From positions 1 through 24,773 of the IMG/VR virus record IMGVR_UViG_3300042445_002566: 24,773 nt of DNA. The stretch is one strand, 5' to 3'. Below are positions 2,970 to 23,575 of this stretch, in pieces. The position numbers were made by a program, and so were the translations under genes. Position 1 is the stretch's first letter. Each line of letters starts with the position of its first letter. Under the pieces are notes generated by a model that was given only the letters and a program-made list of their open reading frames with translations, was not told the DNA's origin and did not search any database. The stretch is from a virus.

Positions 2970-3799
2970 TAGTTGCCTCCTGTAACCCGGCGGAACGCAT
3001 CAATTGCGCTTGCGCCTATATCTTGCACTGTCGGTGTTGTTTTGCCCTGTGTGGGGACTACAGGGGTTCCTGTGGTGGCATTCGCCCAATGCTTCCATAA
3101 TGAGTTGAGTGTAATCAAGTCGCGGCGGTTTGACCACTTCATGAGGAGCGTCCTGCTGGCCTGTGCAACCTCGGCTGGTGTGATGCCCTTGTGATGCATC
3201 TGATACACAATGTGTTTAGCACTAGTCCATTCAGACAGGTTGAAATCACCTGCTTGAAGTTCAGGGAATATGACCTCCCTGAATGCCTCGAACAATAGCC
3301 GACCGGGGTCATCAATCTTTGGAATCGATGGGCCTTTCCGCTTGCGAGGTATTACTAGTTCATTTGGCTGTTGTTCAAATTGGTTATTGTTAATTGGGGT
3401 CTCATTTTTGATACCCACCCCCCTATCAGATTTGATAGGGTCACCCTCTCCAATTTGAGACCCCGGAAACAGCCAGAAACCGTTACTGGTCTGCCGACCA
3501 TCGGTAGTGAACCGGGGCTTCTTAGCAAGGATATGGTGGCCGTCAATCTGCATTTCCATCAGATGCTCAATGGCACGGCGAACCGTACCTTCAGACAATC
3601 CGGTCGTGCCAACCAGTGACGTGACACTGGGGAAGCAATACCCGTTGTTATCCATCCGCAAAGCCAGCGCGGTAAATACTATCCACCCGCCAGCGGTGAA
3701 CTTGTGAAGGTGCGGAAGCATTGAGTGATGTACCTGAACGTAGGTAATATCCTCGTGCGTGCTTAGGCTACGCCGCCCTCCATTGAATATCGTAATCAT
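2969..3799 (-). CDS. Phage replication initiator (winged-helix replisome organizer)
   Basis: A 276-residue protein. Residues ~25-95 form a winged helix-turn-helix of the kind found in phage initiator and plasmid Rep proteins: FPSVTSLVGTTGLSEGTVRR, then AIEHLMEM. Residues ~112-138 are a polar linker, and the C-terminal half (EWTSAKHIVYQMHHKGITP, LLMKWSNRRD) resembles the helical second domain of replisome organizers. The start has a strong TATAGGAGG 6 bases upstream. The linker-coding DNA holds inverted and direct repeats (separate entry), which is how lambda O and similar initiators carry their own origin. The G39P-like gene follows with a 1-base overlap. The role, binding the origin and recruiting a helicase loader, is inferred from domain type and context. 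Confidence 0.65.
   Translation of the reverse strand: MITIFNGGRRSLSTHEDITYVQVHHSMLPHLHKFTAGGWIVFTALALRMDNNGYCFPSVTSLVGTTGLSEGTVRRAIEHLMEMQIDGHHILAKKPRFTTDGRQTSNGFWLFPGSQIGEGDPIKSDRGVGIKNETPINNNQFEQQPNELVIPRKRKGPSIPKIDDPGRLLFEAFREVIFPELQAGDFNLSEWTSAKHIVYQMHHKGITPAEVAQASRTLLMKWSNRRDLITLNSLWKHWANATTGTPVVPTQGKTTPTVQDIGASAIDAFRRVTGGN
3389..3464. repeat. Origin-like repeat array inside the initiator gene
   Basis: Reading rightward, the array has a GGGGTCTCATTTTTGATA site (3396-3413), a C-rich spacer, an 8-bp perfect inverted repeat CCCTATCA/TGATAGGG with a 4-base centre (3421-3440), and an inverted TGAGACCCC half-site (3456-3464). The block from 3389 (GTTAATT plus the first site, 25 bp) recurs with one difference upstream of the lysin at 23535-23559. 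It falls in the linker codons (~112-138) of the replication initiator. Position and structure suggest initiator binding sites and a replication origin, as in lambda O; this is inference. Confidence 0.55.
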
Positions 3800-9803: not shown

Positions 9804-9826
9804 TTGTAAACTCCTATGGGGTAATT

Positions 9827-9847
9827 GGGGCGGCGGTGAACCGCCCC
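9827..9847 (-). repeat. Intergenic hairpin family, copy 5
   Basis: Arms GGGGCGG and CCGCCCC (7 bp, perfect) with transcribed-strand loop TTCACCG, the commonest form of the family. It lies 9 bases from the stop at 9857. Confidence 0.82.
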
Positions 9848-9856
9848 GTGGGCGTG

Positions 9857-10246: not shown

Positions 10247-10270
10247 AACTTCTCCTTATGGGGTAAACAT

Positions 10271-10291
10271 GGGGCGGCGGTGAACCGCCCC
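10271..10291 (-). repeat. Intergenic hairpin family, copy 6
   Basis: Perfect 7-bp arms GGGGCGG and CCGCCCC with transcribed-strand loop TTCACCG, identical to copy 5. It lies between the stop at 10307 and the AAGGAG of the gene starting at 10246. Confidence 0.82.
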
Positions 10292-10306
10292 GGGACATTG
10301 GGGTAT

Positions 10307-12050: not shown

Positions 12051-12956
12051 CTATTCGGTCGCGTCAGTATCCGCCGCGCCGTGTTTTACGTTGAGTACTA
12101 GGTCGACCGCCTTGGAACTCGCGCTCGCCGCCTTAAGTAGAATGCCCCGGTCGGCTTTAATTTTGTCAGCCCACCCGGCGAGGTATGCGATACTGTTGCT
12201 GGTCACCGCGGGCTGTGCCAGCCCTGCGGTCGCTAGTAGAATACTAGCCCCCATCTCAGCGACCAACTCCTCAACGGCGTATTTTTCCGAGCCGAATGTC
12301 CCACCGGTGATACCGGGGCGGTTGAGTCTAGTACCGTGACCCGTGCTGTGTACCATTTCGTGGTACAGCGTGCTGTAGTATTCGGCGGTTCCGACGAAGG
12401 AACCGATGGGCGGGACATTGACCCGGTCACCGCTGGGCATATACCAAGCCCCGCCGCCAACATGGGACAGCGGGATATTTTCACGAGTCAAGTACTCGGT
12501 CGCGATTCTATCGCCCTCAGCATCCGCCGCTATTATCGCCGCCGCAGGGTCGACCGGGGCGGCTGGCAGGGGTGCGATACCGTCAATTTGCTCGGCGTTG
12601 AAGATTGAATAGGTCTTTACAATTGGTATCGTGTCAGTATCGGTTGGTGATACCGCCCCCGCCTTGGTGACCTCGAGGAATTTCCAAAATGTAACGTAGG
12701 TACATTTTTGCCCCTTACGAACTGTACCGCCCTTGGATTTCCACTGGGCAAATGTTCCCCACCGTGGGTCGGTGTATGGGGTACAGCCCAAAATCAATAC
12801 GTTGAGACCCCGATACGCCTTCCGGGATACTACATTGTATGGGAGGGAAGCCCCCCCATCATACGCCGCCCACGGTTTAGCCCATGGGGCGCGTCCGTTG
12901 CTGAGTGCGTCAATGACCGCATCGATGATGGGGTCGAGTACTTTGTTATTTGACAT
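12051..12956 (-). CDS. ardC: ArdC-type antirestriction protein with metallopeptidase domain
   Basis: A 301-residue protein. Residues ~1-95 match the ArdC N-terminal ssDNA-binding domain: PWAKPW, LPYNVVSRKAYRGLNVLILG, WGTFAQWKSKGGTVRKGQK. Residues ~185-240 form the zincin domain: YYSTLYHEMVHSTGHGTRLN with HEMVH at 199-203, followed by the downstream glutamates in YAVEELVAEMGA that supply the third metal ligand. ArdC proteins of conjugative plasmids protect incoming DNA from type I restriction, and related proteins occur in phages. All key residues are present, so it is probably active. The start has GGAG 9 bases upstream. The linker is shorter than in typical TraC-type primase fusions, so this is the stand-alone form. 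The target of the peptidase is not known here. Confidence 0.82.
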   Translation of the reverse strand: MSNNKVLDPIIDAVIDALSNGRAPWAKPWAAYDGGASLPYNVVSRKAYRGLNVLILGCTPYTDPRWGTFAQWKSKGGTVRKGQKCTYVTFWKFLEVTKAGAVSPTDTDTIPIVKTYSIFNAEQIDGIAPLPAAPVDPAAAIIAADAEGDRIATEYLTRENIPLSHVGGGAWYMPSGDRVNVPPIGSFVGTAEYYSTLYHEMVHSTGHGTRLNRPGITGGTFGSEKYAVEELVAEMGASILLATAGLAQPAVTSNSIAYLAGWADKIKADRGILLKAASASSKAVDLVLNVKHGAADTDATE

Positions 12957-13318: not shown

Positions 13319-13358
13319 TATATTCTCCTATAGGAACGGGCTTCAGTGGAATTGGGGT

Positions 13359-13379
13359 GGGGCGGCGGTGAACCGCCCC
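13359..13379 (-). repeat. Intergenic hairpin family, copy 10
   Basis: Perfect 7-bp arms GGGGCGG and CCGCCCC with loop TTCACCG. The neighbouring 18 bases TAGGAACGGGCTTCAGTG (13331-13348) occur again exactly at 14621-14638 beside copy 13, so a longer unit has been duplicated between these two gaps. Confidence 0.82.
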
Positions 13380-13388
13380 GGGGTCGGG

Positions 13389-16821: not shown

Positions 16822-17097
16822 ATGCCGTATGTAAATAAGGCTCGTCCCTATAAGACGGAGTACGAGCAACAGGTTGCTAGGGGTGAGCATGGTAAGCGTA
16901 TGGAGCGTCAGAAGGCTCGTAGGGAGATGGATGCTAAGGGTGTTGATAGGACGGGTAAGGATATTGACCACAAGAAGCCGCTAAGTAAGGGTGGTACGAA
17001 TGCGGCTAGTAACTTGCGGTTGGTGAAGCCTAGTACTAACCGGTCGTTTGCTAGGAACAGTGACGGTACGGTGAAGTCTACTAAGGTGAAGAAGTGA
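16822..17097 (+). CDS. HNH-like endonuclease protein
   Basis: A 91-residue, very basic protein. Residues ~48-72 read DIDHKKPLSKGGTNAASNLR, then LVKPSTNRS: the DH...GG...NL...N core of an HNH/McrA-type nuclease fold. The N-terminal half is a charged helix (RMERQKARREMDAK). Small HNH proteins of this type are common in phages, where some act with packaging or recombination and others are homing nucleases; which applies here is unknown. The final His of a full HNH motif is not obvious (LRLVKPSTN), so activity may differ from classic members. The ATG at 16822 has GGAGG 9 bases upstream. It is the first gene of a four-gene rightward operon. Confidence 0.7.
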   Translation: MPYVNKARPYKTEYEQQVARGEHGKRMERQKARREMDAKGVDRTGKDIDHKKPLSKGGTNAASNLRLVKPSTNRSFARNSDGTVKSTKVKK

Positions 17098-17480
17098 GTA
17101 CGGCTGTTAAGAAGAACCCTGCTAAGTGGAAGGCCATTGTTGCTAGTGTGAAGGCTAGTAGCAAGGGAGGCGATGTAGGGGAGTGGTCAGCACGTAAGGC
17201 ACAACTAGCCGTTCAGAAGTATAAAGCGTCAGGTGGGGGATATGAGGGGCCTAAGAAGGCAGACAATTCTCTAAGTAAGTGGAGTGGTGAGAAGTGGCGT
17301 ACTAGTGATGGGACACCCAGCGAGGGTAAGAAGCGTTATCTACCTGATAAGGCTTGGAGTGGATTAAGTACCGGTGAAAAGGCCGCTACTAATAAGGCTA
17401 AAGCGGCTGGTGACAAGGCTGGTAAGCAGTTCGTTGCACAACCAAAGAAGATTGCGGCAAAGACAGCGAGGTACAGATGA
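17094..17480 (+). CDS. DUF5872-like basic protein
   Basis: A 128-residue Lys-rich protein. The C-terminal ~70 residues (SKWSGEKWRTSDGTPSEGKK, RYLPDKAWSGLSTGEKAATN, then GKQFVAQPKKIAAKTARYR) match a conserved domain that I know as DUF5872, found in phages and large DNA viruses. Its function is unknown; the high charge suggests binding to nucleic acid. The start is GTG, overlapping the previous stop as GTGA, and the next gene again overlaps by 4 bases, so the operon is translationally coupled. Confidence 0.7.
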   Translation: MSTAVKKNPAKWKAIVASVKASSKGGDVGEWSARKAQLAVQKYKASGGGYEGPKKADNSLSKWSGEKWRTSDGTPSEGKKRYLPDKAWSGLSTGEKAATNKAKAAGDKAGKQFVAQPKKIAAKTARYR

Positions 17481-17722
17481 CAGGCACTAAAGCACTTGGG
17501 TTCTTGCGACAGGGACACAAGATACGCAGGGACTCTTGGTTCAACGGTACATACGCACAGGTGATTGACGGCAAGATAAAGATGTATCGCCAGCCTAGAG
17601 AGAACTCTAAGGCGTTGCATGAATATACGTTTACTGCCAATGACCTGTTGCATGATGACTGGTCTGTTGAGTGGATGTACGAATGGAAGAATAAAGACGC
17701 TGAAGAACAAGAGGTTGAATGA
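17477..17722 (+). CDS. Tad2-like (DUF2829) protein, copy 1
   Basis: An 81-residue protein. It opens with TKALGFLRQGHKIRRDSWFN and closes with FTANDLLHDDWSVEW, the two ends of the DUF2829 signature ('Al..L..G..i.R..W ... DlLa.DW.v'). Thoeris anti-defence protein Tad2 of phage SPO1 belongs to this family and sequesters the cyclic ADP-ribose signal made by Thoeris. Family membership looks good; anti-Thoeris activity is inference, since most members are untested. The body between the ends is shorter than in many homologues. The start overlaps the preceding stop by 4 bases, and the next gene overlaps its end by 4. Two more relatives lie in the neighbouring leftward operon. Confidence 0.7.
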   Translation: MTGTKALGFLRQGHKIRRDSWFNGTYAQVIDGKIKMYRQPRENSKALHEYTFTANDLLHDDWSVEWMYEWKNKDAEEQEVE

Positions 17723-18285
17723 TTATCCTTCCAGAGGGTAAGTGGGATGTCATAGTAGCAGACCCACCATGGTCGTATACAGGCGCACAGGATAAGTGGG
17801 GTGCGGCGGCTAAGTTCTACGACACTATGACAGATGAAGACCTACGCAATATGCCTATCAAGGACATGATGCACAAGCAGTCGGTGCTGTTTATGTGGGC
17901 TACATCCCCTAGAATGGACGCGGCTATCGACTTGATGCGTCATTGGGGGCTAACGTACCGGGGTGTAAGTTTTGTATGGGTTAAAACACGGCAAGATGGG
18001 GTCACACCTATAGGCGCACAGGGTGTAAGGCCCACTATTGTCAAGCCAACAGTTGAATTTGTGCTTGCAGGGACGGTCTGTAAGACGGGTAGGCCCTTGA
18101 AATTGGCGGATGAGGGTGTGGCAAACGTCGTGTTGGCCCCAAAACGGGAGCATTCACGGAAACCAGACGAGGTGAATAGGCGAATTGACCGGTTGTACCC
18201 CGAAGCGTCTAAGATTGAACTGTTTGCAAGAAGCAAATGGCCCAACTGGGATGCTTGGGGCAATCAAGTTGGGCTATTTGATTAG
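17719..18285 (+). CDS. MT-A70 family DNA adenine methyltransferase
   Basis: A 188-residue protein. VIVADPPWSYTGAQ carries the catalytic DPPW at residues 15-18; FMWATSPRMDAAIDLMRHWG and FVWVKTRQDG follow, then EFVLAGTVCKTGR and a C-terminal HSRKPDEVNRRIDRLYP and KIELFARSKWPNWDAWGNQV. These are the standard MT-A70 blocks, so it should transfer a methyl group from S-adenosylmethionine to adenine N6 in DNA. Phage copies usually protect the genome from restriction. All conserved blocks are present. It overlaps the Tad2-like gene by 4 bases, and its 3' end overlaps the convergent DUF3310 gene by 4 bases, leaving no room for a terminator. Confidence 0.87.
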   Translation: MIILPEGKWDVIVADPPWSYTGAQDKWGAAAKFYDTMTDEDLRNMPIKDMMHKQSVLFMWATSPRMDAAIDLMRHWGLTYRGVSFVWVKTRQDGVTPIGAQGVRPTIVKPTVEFVLAGTVCKTGRPLKLADEGVANVVLAPKREHSRKPDEVNRRIDRLYPEASKIELFARSKWPNWDAWGNQVGLFD

Positions 18286-18560
18286 GATTCTGTTTTGTCT
18301 AAAGGCTGTCCTACATCAATATCAATGTAGTTGGCTATCCTAGCAACTGCGGCATCGGCTTCTGCTGTACTACCGGTAAGTTCCTTTATGGCATACCAGA
18401 CTACCTTGATAAGGTCTGTATCTTTAGACCCTTTGAGGTTGCATCTAACGGTGTATTTAATGATATTGCCTAGCCTAAAGTTAAGGCCCCACTCTTCAAT
18501 GGCATCATCAGGTTGAATCTTTGCATTTCTGTAATGCTTGACTAAGTTACCACCATCCAT
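18282..18560 (-). CDS. DUF3310 protein (SaV-like)
   Basis: A 92-residue protein. The sequence VKHYRNAKIQPDDAIEEWGL, then NFRLGNIIKYTVRCNLKGSK and DTDLIKVVWYAIKEL, is the DUF3310 pattern ('HY....i.p.d.i..wgl.f.lGn.iKY..R...Kg...DL.Ka..Y...l'). Phage members have been called nucleotide kinase-like, but the activity is not firmly known. The ATG at 18560 is preferred because the domain begins directly after it; the frame stays open to 18617, so a longer start is possible. It is the last gene of the leftward regulator operon and converges with the MT-A70 gene. Confidence 0.75.
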   Translation of the reverse strand: MDGGNLVKHYRNAKIQPDDAIEEWGLNFRLGNIIKYTVRCNLKGSKDTDLIKVVWYAIKELTGSTAEADAAVARIANYIDIDVGQPLDKTES

Positions 18561-18813
18561 TTTTGTACCCCGGTAACGGCAGTGCCGCTTTCCATGCGTA
18601 GTATTCATCCTCGCCATGTAGGCGGAAATGCTTGTCGTTGATGTAGATGTCTACATATTGATACGTTTCCCAATTGCGCCACATAGAGCGCGTAAGGATA
18701 ACACGACGCTTGCCATCCTTAGATACCCAGTCTTTACCTAGTGTGCTATGTGGGTCTTTACTGTGACTGAACGACCGTAGGTCGCGGAACGGTTGACGAG
18801 GACACTGAATCAT
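18547..18813 (-). CDS. Hypothetical protein
   Basis: An 88-residue protein (MIQCPRQPFRDLRSFSHSKD...) rich in aromatic residues, with a beta-rich core (WVSKDGKRRVILTRSMWRNW, YVDIYINDKHFRLHGEDEYY). No family is recognised. The ATG at 18813 overlaps the preceding stop (AAATGA), implying coupling; the frame is open further upstream, so the start is uncertain. It overlaps the DUF3310 gene by 14 bases. Confidence 0.6.
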   Translation of the reverse strand: MIQCPRQPFRDLRSFSHSKDPHSTLGKDWVSKDGKRRVILTRSMWRNWETYQYVDIYINDKHFRLHGEDEYYAWKAALPLPGYKNGWW

Positions 18814-19043
18814 TTCTTGAGAACTATCCAATCGTGAACGGAGCGTTTTGGTTGCTTGAACCACATTACTATCTCTTCTTCCTTAATAGCAGAAAGAGAG
18901 GTATCTGCGACAAGGTGAATCTGCATTTCAGCAATTGATTCACCGGTAGGGTTTCTAGCGAACACATACATATCATGATGCCAATTGGCACGCCGTATTG
19001 AGTTGCCACGAGATAGATATGCAAATGCACTTTTGAAGGTCAT
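18810..19043 (-). CDS. Tad2-like (DUF2829) protein, copy 2, divergent
   Basis: A 77-residue protein. It begins MTFKSAFAYLSRGNSIRRAN, then W, and ends VHDWIVLKK, keeping the 'A..yL..G..i.R..W ... DW.v' frame of DUF2829. The middle (MYVFAR, then VMWF) fits the family's strands. It is the most divergent of the three copies: the D-L-L/D-M segment before DW is not clear. The start has GGAG 3 bases upstream and overlaps the preceding stop as ATGA. It may be an anti-Thoeris or other nucleotide-binding protein; this is inference from family. Confidence 0.55.
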   Translation of the reverse strand: MTFKSAFAYLSRGNSIRRANWHHDMYVFARNPTGESIAEMQIHLVADTSLSAIKEEEIVMWFKQPKRSVHDWIVLKK

Positions 19044-19303
19044 GGTCTCCAGCGAACCTCTACCGTACGCACCTTAGTGTCACGTTCATATCTGTTATAT
19101 ATAGCAAATGCATCTTCATATATGGACTTAAACGCAGGATTCCGCACTAGTCCAATCGGGCGTGATGTTCCATCTTCATAATCAACAAATAACTCAACAC
19201 CCAGTGCTTTAGGATTTTCTGCAAAGTAAAGGCCAATGTCATAGGCTACTTGCTCTATGGTGTTATCTTCTGGATACATCCGCATAAAGTTAACTTTTAC
19301 CAT
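19040..19303 (-). CDS. Hypothetical protein
   Basis: An 87-residue alpha/beta protein (MVKVNFMRMYPEDNTIEQVA, YDIGLYFAENPKALGVELFV) with no recognised family. The ATG at 19303 has GGAGG 6 bases upstream; an ATG at 19309 touches that site and is less likely. It lies between two Tad2-like genes and overlaps both, so it may act with them. Confidence 0.62.
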   Translation of the reverse strand: MVKVNFMRMYPEDNTIEQVAYDIGLYFAENPKALGVELFVDYEDGTSRPIGLVRNPAFKSIYEDAFAIYNRYERDTKVRTVEVRWRP

Positions 19304-19529
19304 TGTCATCCTCCCAGTCACAGACTTCCCAGTCATCTGCCTTCATGTCGTCATAAGTAAAGCAGGTGAACTTACATTGCGTTTCCCATGCTTCCGCTGT
19401 ACGTCTTTCAACGAAACATAATGTTTTAAGGTCAAAGTAGACAATGCGGTGTTCGTCATTGTCTAGCCATGCCTTACGGGTTATGGGTAATCCATCCATA
19501 AGAGCATCTAATACTGCCGCATAAGTCAT
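19290..19529 (-). CDS. Tad2-like (DUF2829) protein, copy 3
   Basis: A 79-residue protein. It begins MTYAAVLDALMDGLPITRKA, then W, and ends TYDDMKADDWEVCDW: 'Al..L..G..I.R..W' followed by 'DDM.AdDWEV', close to the DUF2829 consensus. The acidic tail continues EDDNGKS. The family includes Tad2, which traps Thoeris signal molecules. It overlaps the XRE regulator by 4 bases and the next gene by 14. It is only distantly similar to the other two copies, so they are not a recent tandem duplication. Confidence 0.65.
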   Translation of the reverse strand: MTYAAVLDALMDGLPITRKAWLDNDEHRIVYFDLKTLCFVERRTAEAWETQCKFTCFTYDDMKADDWEVCDWEDDNGKS

Positions 19530-19936
19530 CTATTATCAGCCCACTCATGTTTCATATACGCATTGATGTTATTCATCAGGCCGTCTACGCTACGTGTAAT
19601 TACGTCATACGGGAATGACAGCATTGGGTATCCATGGTCTTTTAGTTCGCCGTAGTACACAAACACAGCATATGGAATATCTAGATGCATAGATAGGGAA
19701 TCCCAGTATGCTTTGCCAGACCTAATGCCCATCTCGATGTTATTCAGGGTCTGCGGTGAACAATGCTTGCCATCCTTAGTCCGCAATAATCCCGATAGAT
19801 GTCGCTGTTGAATGCCAAGTGACAAGCGGCGATATCTGATGATTTCGCTAAGGTTGGTTTCTGTGAGCCAGATAGTTCCATCGTTGCGTTTCCATGAACC
19901 GTTATGCGTATAAAACGCTGGATTCTTTATAAACAT
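19526..19936 (-). CDS. XRE-type helix-turn-helix regulator
   Basis: A 136-residue protein. Residues ~28-80 match an XRE/Cro-CI helix-turn-helix: LSEIIRYRRLSLGIQQRHLS, then GLLRTKDGKHCSPQTLNNIE, then GKAYWDSLSMHLDIPYAVF. An insertion in the turn (RTKDGKH) is unusual. The C-terminal ~45 residues are not recognised. It probably binds DNA as a dimer and may control its own operon. GGAGG lies 4 bases before the ATG, and the start overlaps the preceding stop as TAATG. It follows a leaderless-type promoter and precedes Tad2-like genes, an arrangement like a phage regulator-plus-anti-defence operon. Confidence 0.68.
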   Translation of the reverse strand: MFIKNPAFYTHNGSWKRNDGTIWLTETNLSEIIRYRRLSLGIQQRHLSGLLRTKDGKHCSPQTLNNIEMGIRSGKAYWDSLSMHLDIPYAVFVYYGELKDHGYPMLSFPYDVITRSVDGLMNNINAYMKHEWADNR

Positions 19937-23483: not shown

Positions 23484-23559
23484 GGGGTCTCGTATTTGGT
23501 AGCCACGGGGGTCTCATATTTAGTACCCCCACCCTATCAAATATGAGACCCCAATTAAC
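23484..23559. repeat. GGGGTCTCA repeat array upstream of the lysin
   Basis: GGGGTCTCGTATTTGGTA (23484-23501), GGGGTCTCATATTTAGTA (23508-23525) and an inverted copy TATCAAATATGAGACCCC (23535-23552) followed by AATTAAC. The second and third form a dyad with 16 of 18 matches around a C-rich spacer. The same motif, with the AATTAAC flank, occurs inside the initiator gene at 3389-3464. Here it lies in the 5' leader of the lysin gene. Confidence 0.75.
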
Positions 23560-23575
23560 TATAATCAAATGGACT

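Follow-up and report, generated by a model that had tools for sequence, protein, structure and literature searches.

Tad2 is described as holding gcADPR in a pocket that has the β1–β2 loop as a wall, the other parts being the β3–β4 loop, strand β4, the β4–α3 loop and helix α3 (PMC12043709). Structures are available for SPO1 Tad2 (gp34.65; PDB 8sme, 8smf and 8smg), which binds gcADPR, for ModTad2 (8v3e and 9eib, with His-ADPR) and for HgmTad2/AcrIIA7 (8kbi, 8kbj and 8kbk). Tad2 proper of this type is a homotetrameric sponge whose ligand pockets lie between subunits, and it binds gcADPR, His-ADPR or cyclic dinucleotides and so blocks Thoeris or CBASS. Nine ordinary Tad2 proteins, among them HgmTad2 and ModTad2, for which ligand-bound structures exist, have 13 invariant positions: scaffold residues, N23, G24 and M27 in the β1–β2 loop and, ahead of the final helix, W74 and S77; all nine share the motifs GWNG..M in that loop and W..S before D....DW. 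Ordinary Tad2 of named phages scores 70–92 bits with PF11195 (Tad2-like), and each of twelve named phages with ordinary Tad2, sampled as a control along the HgmTad2 search ranking, carried one copy (12/12), among them those with close relatives of HgmTad2. Multi-copy genomes are rare but not unprecedented, because Staphylococcus phage SpaA1 has four DUF2829 genes as judged by PF11195, namely the tandem pair P60/P61 and two more (three were listed in a 2012 paper, PMC3398947), and the BFVD holds three Tad2-fold proteins each from Lactobacillus phages Iacchus and Semele. A literature search, which misses most subscription journals, turned up no description of Tad2 arrays.

We here analyzed a 24,773-base record of an uncultured virus (the window, to the full length of which all positions refer), in which a sequence-only reading had proposed three divergent proteins of the DUF2829/Tad2 family. 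All three open reading frames were present as proposed (T1, T2 and T3, Table 1), and a six-frame search of the whole record with PF11195 gave exactly these three places. T1 and T2 exceeded the PF11195 gathering score of 25 bits, and T3 fell under it (E 3.9e-5 in the search of the record); T3-type orthologues in records G069, G070, G071 and G074 exceeded the cut-off with 28.8–29.9 bits. With 23–29 bits against the 70–92 bits of ordinary Tad2, and the 39–90 bits of the SpaA1 genes, T1–T3 are thus remote members of the family, and the strong divergence proposed for them was borne out.

Table 1. Features of the two operons carrying the Tad2-like genes, with positions in the window and profile matches.
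Feature	Position	Strand	Match or remark
g128, upstream of T1, same operon (4-nt overlap)	17094..17480	+	ORF
T1, Tad2-like protein, 81 aa, family F6	17477..17722	+	PF11195 28.8 bits, E 1.8e-6
MT-A70 adenine methylase, overlaps T1 by 4 nt (coupled)	17719..18285	+	PF05063 103.5 bits
DUF3310 protein, last gene of T3–T2 operon	18282..18617	-	PF11753 36.5 bits
g105, overlaps the end of T2; probably starts internally, near 18813	18547..18864	-	no Pfam/PHROG match
T2, Tad2-like protein, 77 aa, family F4	18810..19043	-	PF11195 28.7 bits, E 1.9e-6
g98, 98 aa, between T3 and T2	19040..19336	-	no Pfam, PHROG or NCBIfam match
T3, Tad2-like protein, 79 aa, family F0, in swapped cassette	19290..19529	-	PF11195 23.3 bits, E 9.6e-5
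Putative helix-turn-helix (HTH) gene, 136 aa, directly upstream of T3	19526..19936	-	weak Pfam HTH_3, E 0.31

When the PDB was searched with the single chains of T1, T2 and T3 no significant match was obtained, and family profiles were needed. A profile of 50 related proteins matched HgmTad2/AcrIIA7 best (E 1.3e-7), followed by ModTad2 (4e-7), SptTad2 (3e-5) and SPO1 Tad2 (1.4e-4), with no chain other than Tad2 below E 0.4. Profile–profile comparison (hhalign) of the small families with ordinary Tad2 gave 87–93% probability over the N-terminal half only, the T1 family reaching 93% over that half. AlphaFold models of T3 (pLDDT 84.9) and T2 (pLDDT 83.8) were then compared with known structures, and for both the top matches were all ten listed Tad2 entries, at Z 9.0–9.8 for T3 (next best 3.7) and Z 7.1–8.5 for T2 (next best 4.0), so that the structure comparison that the earlier reading had called for indicates a Tad2 fold for these two predicted proteins. 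The T3 model superimposed on HgmTad2 with Z 9.8 and an rmsd of 1.9 over 66 residues at about 23% identity; the corresponding values were Z 9.2–9.8 for T3 with ModTad2, and Z 9.0–9.6 for T3 and 7.5–8.5 for T2 with SPO1 Tad2, to which the identity is 17–23%.

The main new result is the wider set to which this divergent trio belongs, a variable, swappable multi-copy array. We assembled 25 viral records, being the window and 24 others with a T3-type gene, and as they were picked by that gene an F0 (T3-type) orthologue is found in 25/25. Each of the 25 holds 2–6 Tad2-like genes, 76 in total (E<1e-3, PF11195 together with a clean profile), mostly in operons of overlapping genes; these counts are not independent, because the records were picked by T3, include several close relatives and are in many cases fragments. 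The clean profile was made from unfused Pfam-reported members only (best reversed decoy E 0.0054), since a first, looser iterated profile, which collected 91 genes (24 families when grouped at 45% identity), could take in HTH sequence from the fusion proteins described below; rebuilding it without fusions reduced the 91 genes to 76. Two further array ORFs, L172:4449-4763 (+) and L176:5650-5964 (-) (MKFELAFEALRHGYC...IMTDRWQVG), look Tad2-like by eye but fall under the profile threshold, so the array sizes are lower bounds. As a control picked without reference to Tad2 we used 50 records retrieved via the MT-A70 methylase, of which 49 had no PF11195 match, the remaining one being the sister virus G007 with three matches. 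Searches of the named phages, by tblastn with T1, T2, T3, an HTH fusion and the 583-aa protein at the window start as queries and by megablast with the whole window, gave nothing, and the virus group thus has no close cultured relative there. A scan of genome contigs gave two weak matches, and the one genome then searched had no PF11195 match.

We further compared the arrays with ordinary Tad2 at the positions expected to form the pocket. T1–T3 retain mainly scaffold residues (G, R, W and DW), and the long insert that follows β2 in ordinary Tad2 is mostly missing. The GWNGKGM loop and the W..S motif, both kept in ModTad2 and the former also in HgmTad2, are absent from T1–T3; among the 91 array members as a whole WNG occurs in 0/91, and none has W.[APS]S in its C-terminal part. 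WNG is also lacking in the copy read from the P60/P61 locus of SpaA1. Since the β1–β2 loop is described as a wall of the pocket and its signature is absent, the pocket residues for the known signals, the absence of which the earlier reading had named as a refutation, are largely missing, as judged from the region descriptions in the review together with residues common to ordinary Tad2 rather than from contact lists. Each array family instead conserves polar residues of its own, as exemplified by D25, R28, R42, Q51 and K53 in F0, which lie in or near Tad2-pocket elements when the regions given in the review are mapped on the T3 model. This placement is compatible with rebuilt pockets, without being proof of them. 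It is plausible that different copies would bind different signals, given the residues specific to each family and the exchange of one copy among viruses (see below). Mixed oligomers, the other suggestion of the earlier reading, found no support in any of the tests.

The genes are organized in two convergent operons with 4-nt overlaps at several junctions, as read from the coordinates. The minus-strand operon runs in the order putative HTH gene, T3, g98, T2, g105 and DUF3310, and the plus-strand operon in the order g128, T1 and MT-A70 methylase, in agreement with the proposed placement of the three proteins in two different operons. This layout is common to the sister viruses G001, G002 and G007, in which identity to the window is 93% (G002) and 89% (G007) for g128, 90% (G001) and 89% (G002) for the HTH-like protein, and 83–86% for g105.

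Within the window the three Tad2-like proteins are mutually 24–29% identical, whereas orthologues of T1 (G002 and G007) and T2 (G001, G002 and G007) are 73–88% identical, with T1 at 84% in G002 and 74% in G007, and those of T3 in other viruses are 49–83% identical. The dN/dS ratios among orthologues were 0.05–0.27 overall and 0.08–0.27 for the window genes (T1, 0.08–0.14; T2, 0.25–0.27; T3, 0.14–0.19), showing purifying selection, and T1–T3 are therefore old, maintained paralogues. The denial of a fresh duplication in the sequence-only reading thus held, and these identities and ratios were the grounds on which fresh duplication, simple dose and decayed genes were rejected.

Comparison of G001 with G002 at the DNA level revealed that their shared genes are 97–100% identical except for T3 (65%) and g98 (56%), the g98 proteins being just 41% identical, and the T3 protein of G001 was found to share 81% identity with that of the more distant G007. 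This pattern indicates that T3 and g98 have been exchanged as a cassette between viruses that are otherwise 97–100% identical. As g98 travels with T3 between near-identical viruses, it is a possible partner of T3. Copy number also varies among these relatives, with an extra copy (T0) upstream of T3 in G001 and G002 that is absent from the window and from G007.

Some arrays begin with a protein of 136–143 aa that combines an N-terminal HTH region with a C-terminal Tad2-like domain, and in many records such fusions lie directly upstream of T3-type genes. In the F10 fusion the Tad2-like domain spans residues 56–126 (E 3e-7, clean profile); in the F1 fusion it was weaker, most members giving E 5e-5 to 5e-3 and three no significant match, but it is also matched by PF11195, with a stand-alone F1 relative scoring 28.6 bits. 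Examples heading arrays are L119:1653-2063 (+), L116:3188-3598 (+) and L007:1877-2308 (+), the DNA-binding-like N-terminal regions of which differ, each being followed by a C-terminal Tad2-like domain. The fusion slot of the window is occupied by the weakly matching HTH-like gene, which is without a Tad2 domain. In many arrays the HTH-Tad2 fusion and the T3-type gene are separated by a gene of about 209 aa that, read by eye, would encode a ThyX-type thymidylate synthase (RHRSFSFQEFSQRYA; L172:5214-5858 (+) and equivalents elsewhere).

The best explanation of these findings, to which we would give an even chance, is that T1–T3 are divergent PF11195-fold members of a variable array serving as a counter-defence repertoire, made up of Tad2-fold binding proteins with altered specificity. 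Each copy would be a small oligomeric binding protein that, as Tad2 does, holds a host small molecule at a subunit interface, the molecule being an immune nucleotide or a related signal; the pocket loops would have been rebuilt such that different copies hold different molecules, and copies would come, go and be exchanged among the viruses in step with changing host defences. That the record also encodes the anti-restriction protein ArdC, along with two DNA methylases, counts for a counter-defence role, and the loss of GWNG..M and W..S from all array members counts against it. That loss also goes against the anti-Thoeris part of the earlier reading, and against a rival in which all three proteins would act as ordinary Tad2, sequestering gcADPR (or His-ADPR) like SPO1 Tad2 or ModTad2, with the copies adding dose. 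Fold and family membership fit such a role, but the loop signature of all nine ordinary Tad2 proteins and most of the insert after β2 are gone, the profile scores are far below the ordinary range and copies at 24–29% identity are unlike what dose would produce; no test supported activity of the known type, and we find this function improbable. Even more doubtful, and in our view highly so, is an anti-CRISPR function of the AcrIIA7 type. It is brought up by the best PDB match, 8kbi (HgmTad2), since this entry also goes by the name AcrIIA7, a type II CRISPR-Cas inhibitor, but the structure titles of that protein, with cADPR and cGG, point to nucleotide binding, the match is at the level of fold only (about 23% identity), and the array holds nothing that points to Cas9.

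The main rival, which we consider possible but on the unlikely side, is a role as regulatory or sensor modules, in which the Tad2-like domain, on binding a partner or ligand, would control phage gene expression together with DNA-binding proteins, and stand-alone copies would modulate HTH-fused ones or form hetero-oligomers with them. The F10 and F1 fusions, often directly upstream of T3-type genes, the HTH-like gene in the equivalent slot of the window and a weak PHROG link to 'transcriptional regulator' all fit regulation and to that extent count against a counter-defence repertoire. The window itself has no fusion, however, its upstream gene has a weak HTH match, and 2–6 divergent, swapped copies are seldom the case for regulators. 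Also conceivable, though improbable as a whole, is a modular, signal-responsive sponge system, where an HTH-Tad2 protein would sense a host immune signal and switch on an operon of Tad2-fold proteins with differing pockets, possibly forming mixed oligomers and exchanged as cassettes. That these proteins share the fold but serve another function, such as that of structural or protein–protein adaptors that bind no ligand, would agree with the lost loop signature and with g98 as a possible travelling partner, but within families polar residues are conserved around the place that corresponds to the Tad2 pocket, and we regard such a function as improbable too. Sets of 2–6 divergent Tad2-fold proteins in single records, including one that is swapped, constitute a panel for probing the immune signals of uncultured hosts. 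The arrays allow asking how the Tad2 fold changes specificity, the HTH-Tad2 fusions pose the question of whether the same domain also senses immune signals, and copies that bind new ligands would be reagents for finding unknown bacterial alarm molecules.

Some other elements of the window were also noted. The ArdC-type anti-restriction protein (ArdcN + MPTase-PolyVal), encoded at 12051-12956 (-), is another likely counter-defence gene. A GC-rich palindromic element of 30–45 nt (GGGGCGGYGGTGAACCGCCCC) occurs in 13 copies between 5872 and 14987, including those at 13354-13383, 9822-9851 and 10266-10295, most of them lying between genes, immediately upstream of a minus-strand gene, and adjoining TCTCCTAT (AGGAGA on the minus strand), and could possibly represent a family of 5'-UTR hairpins or terminators. 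Finally, a 39-nt inverted repeat with 87% complementarity (3375-3413 and 23535-23573) has its two arms close to the two ends of the record, with 20 kb between them.
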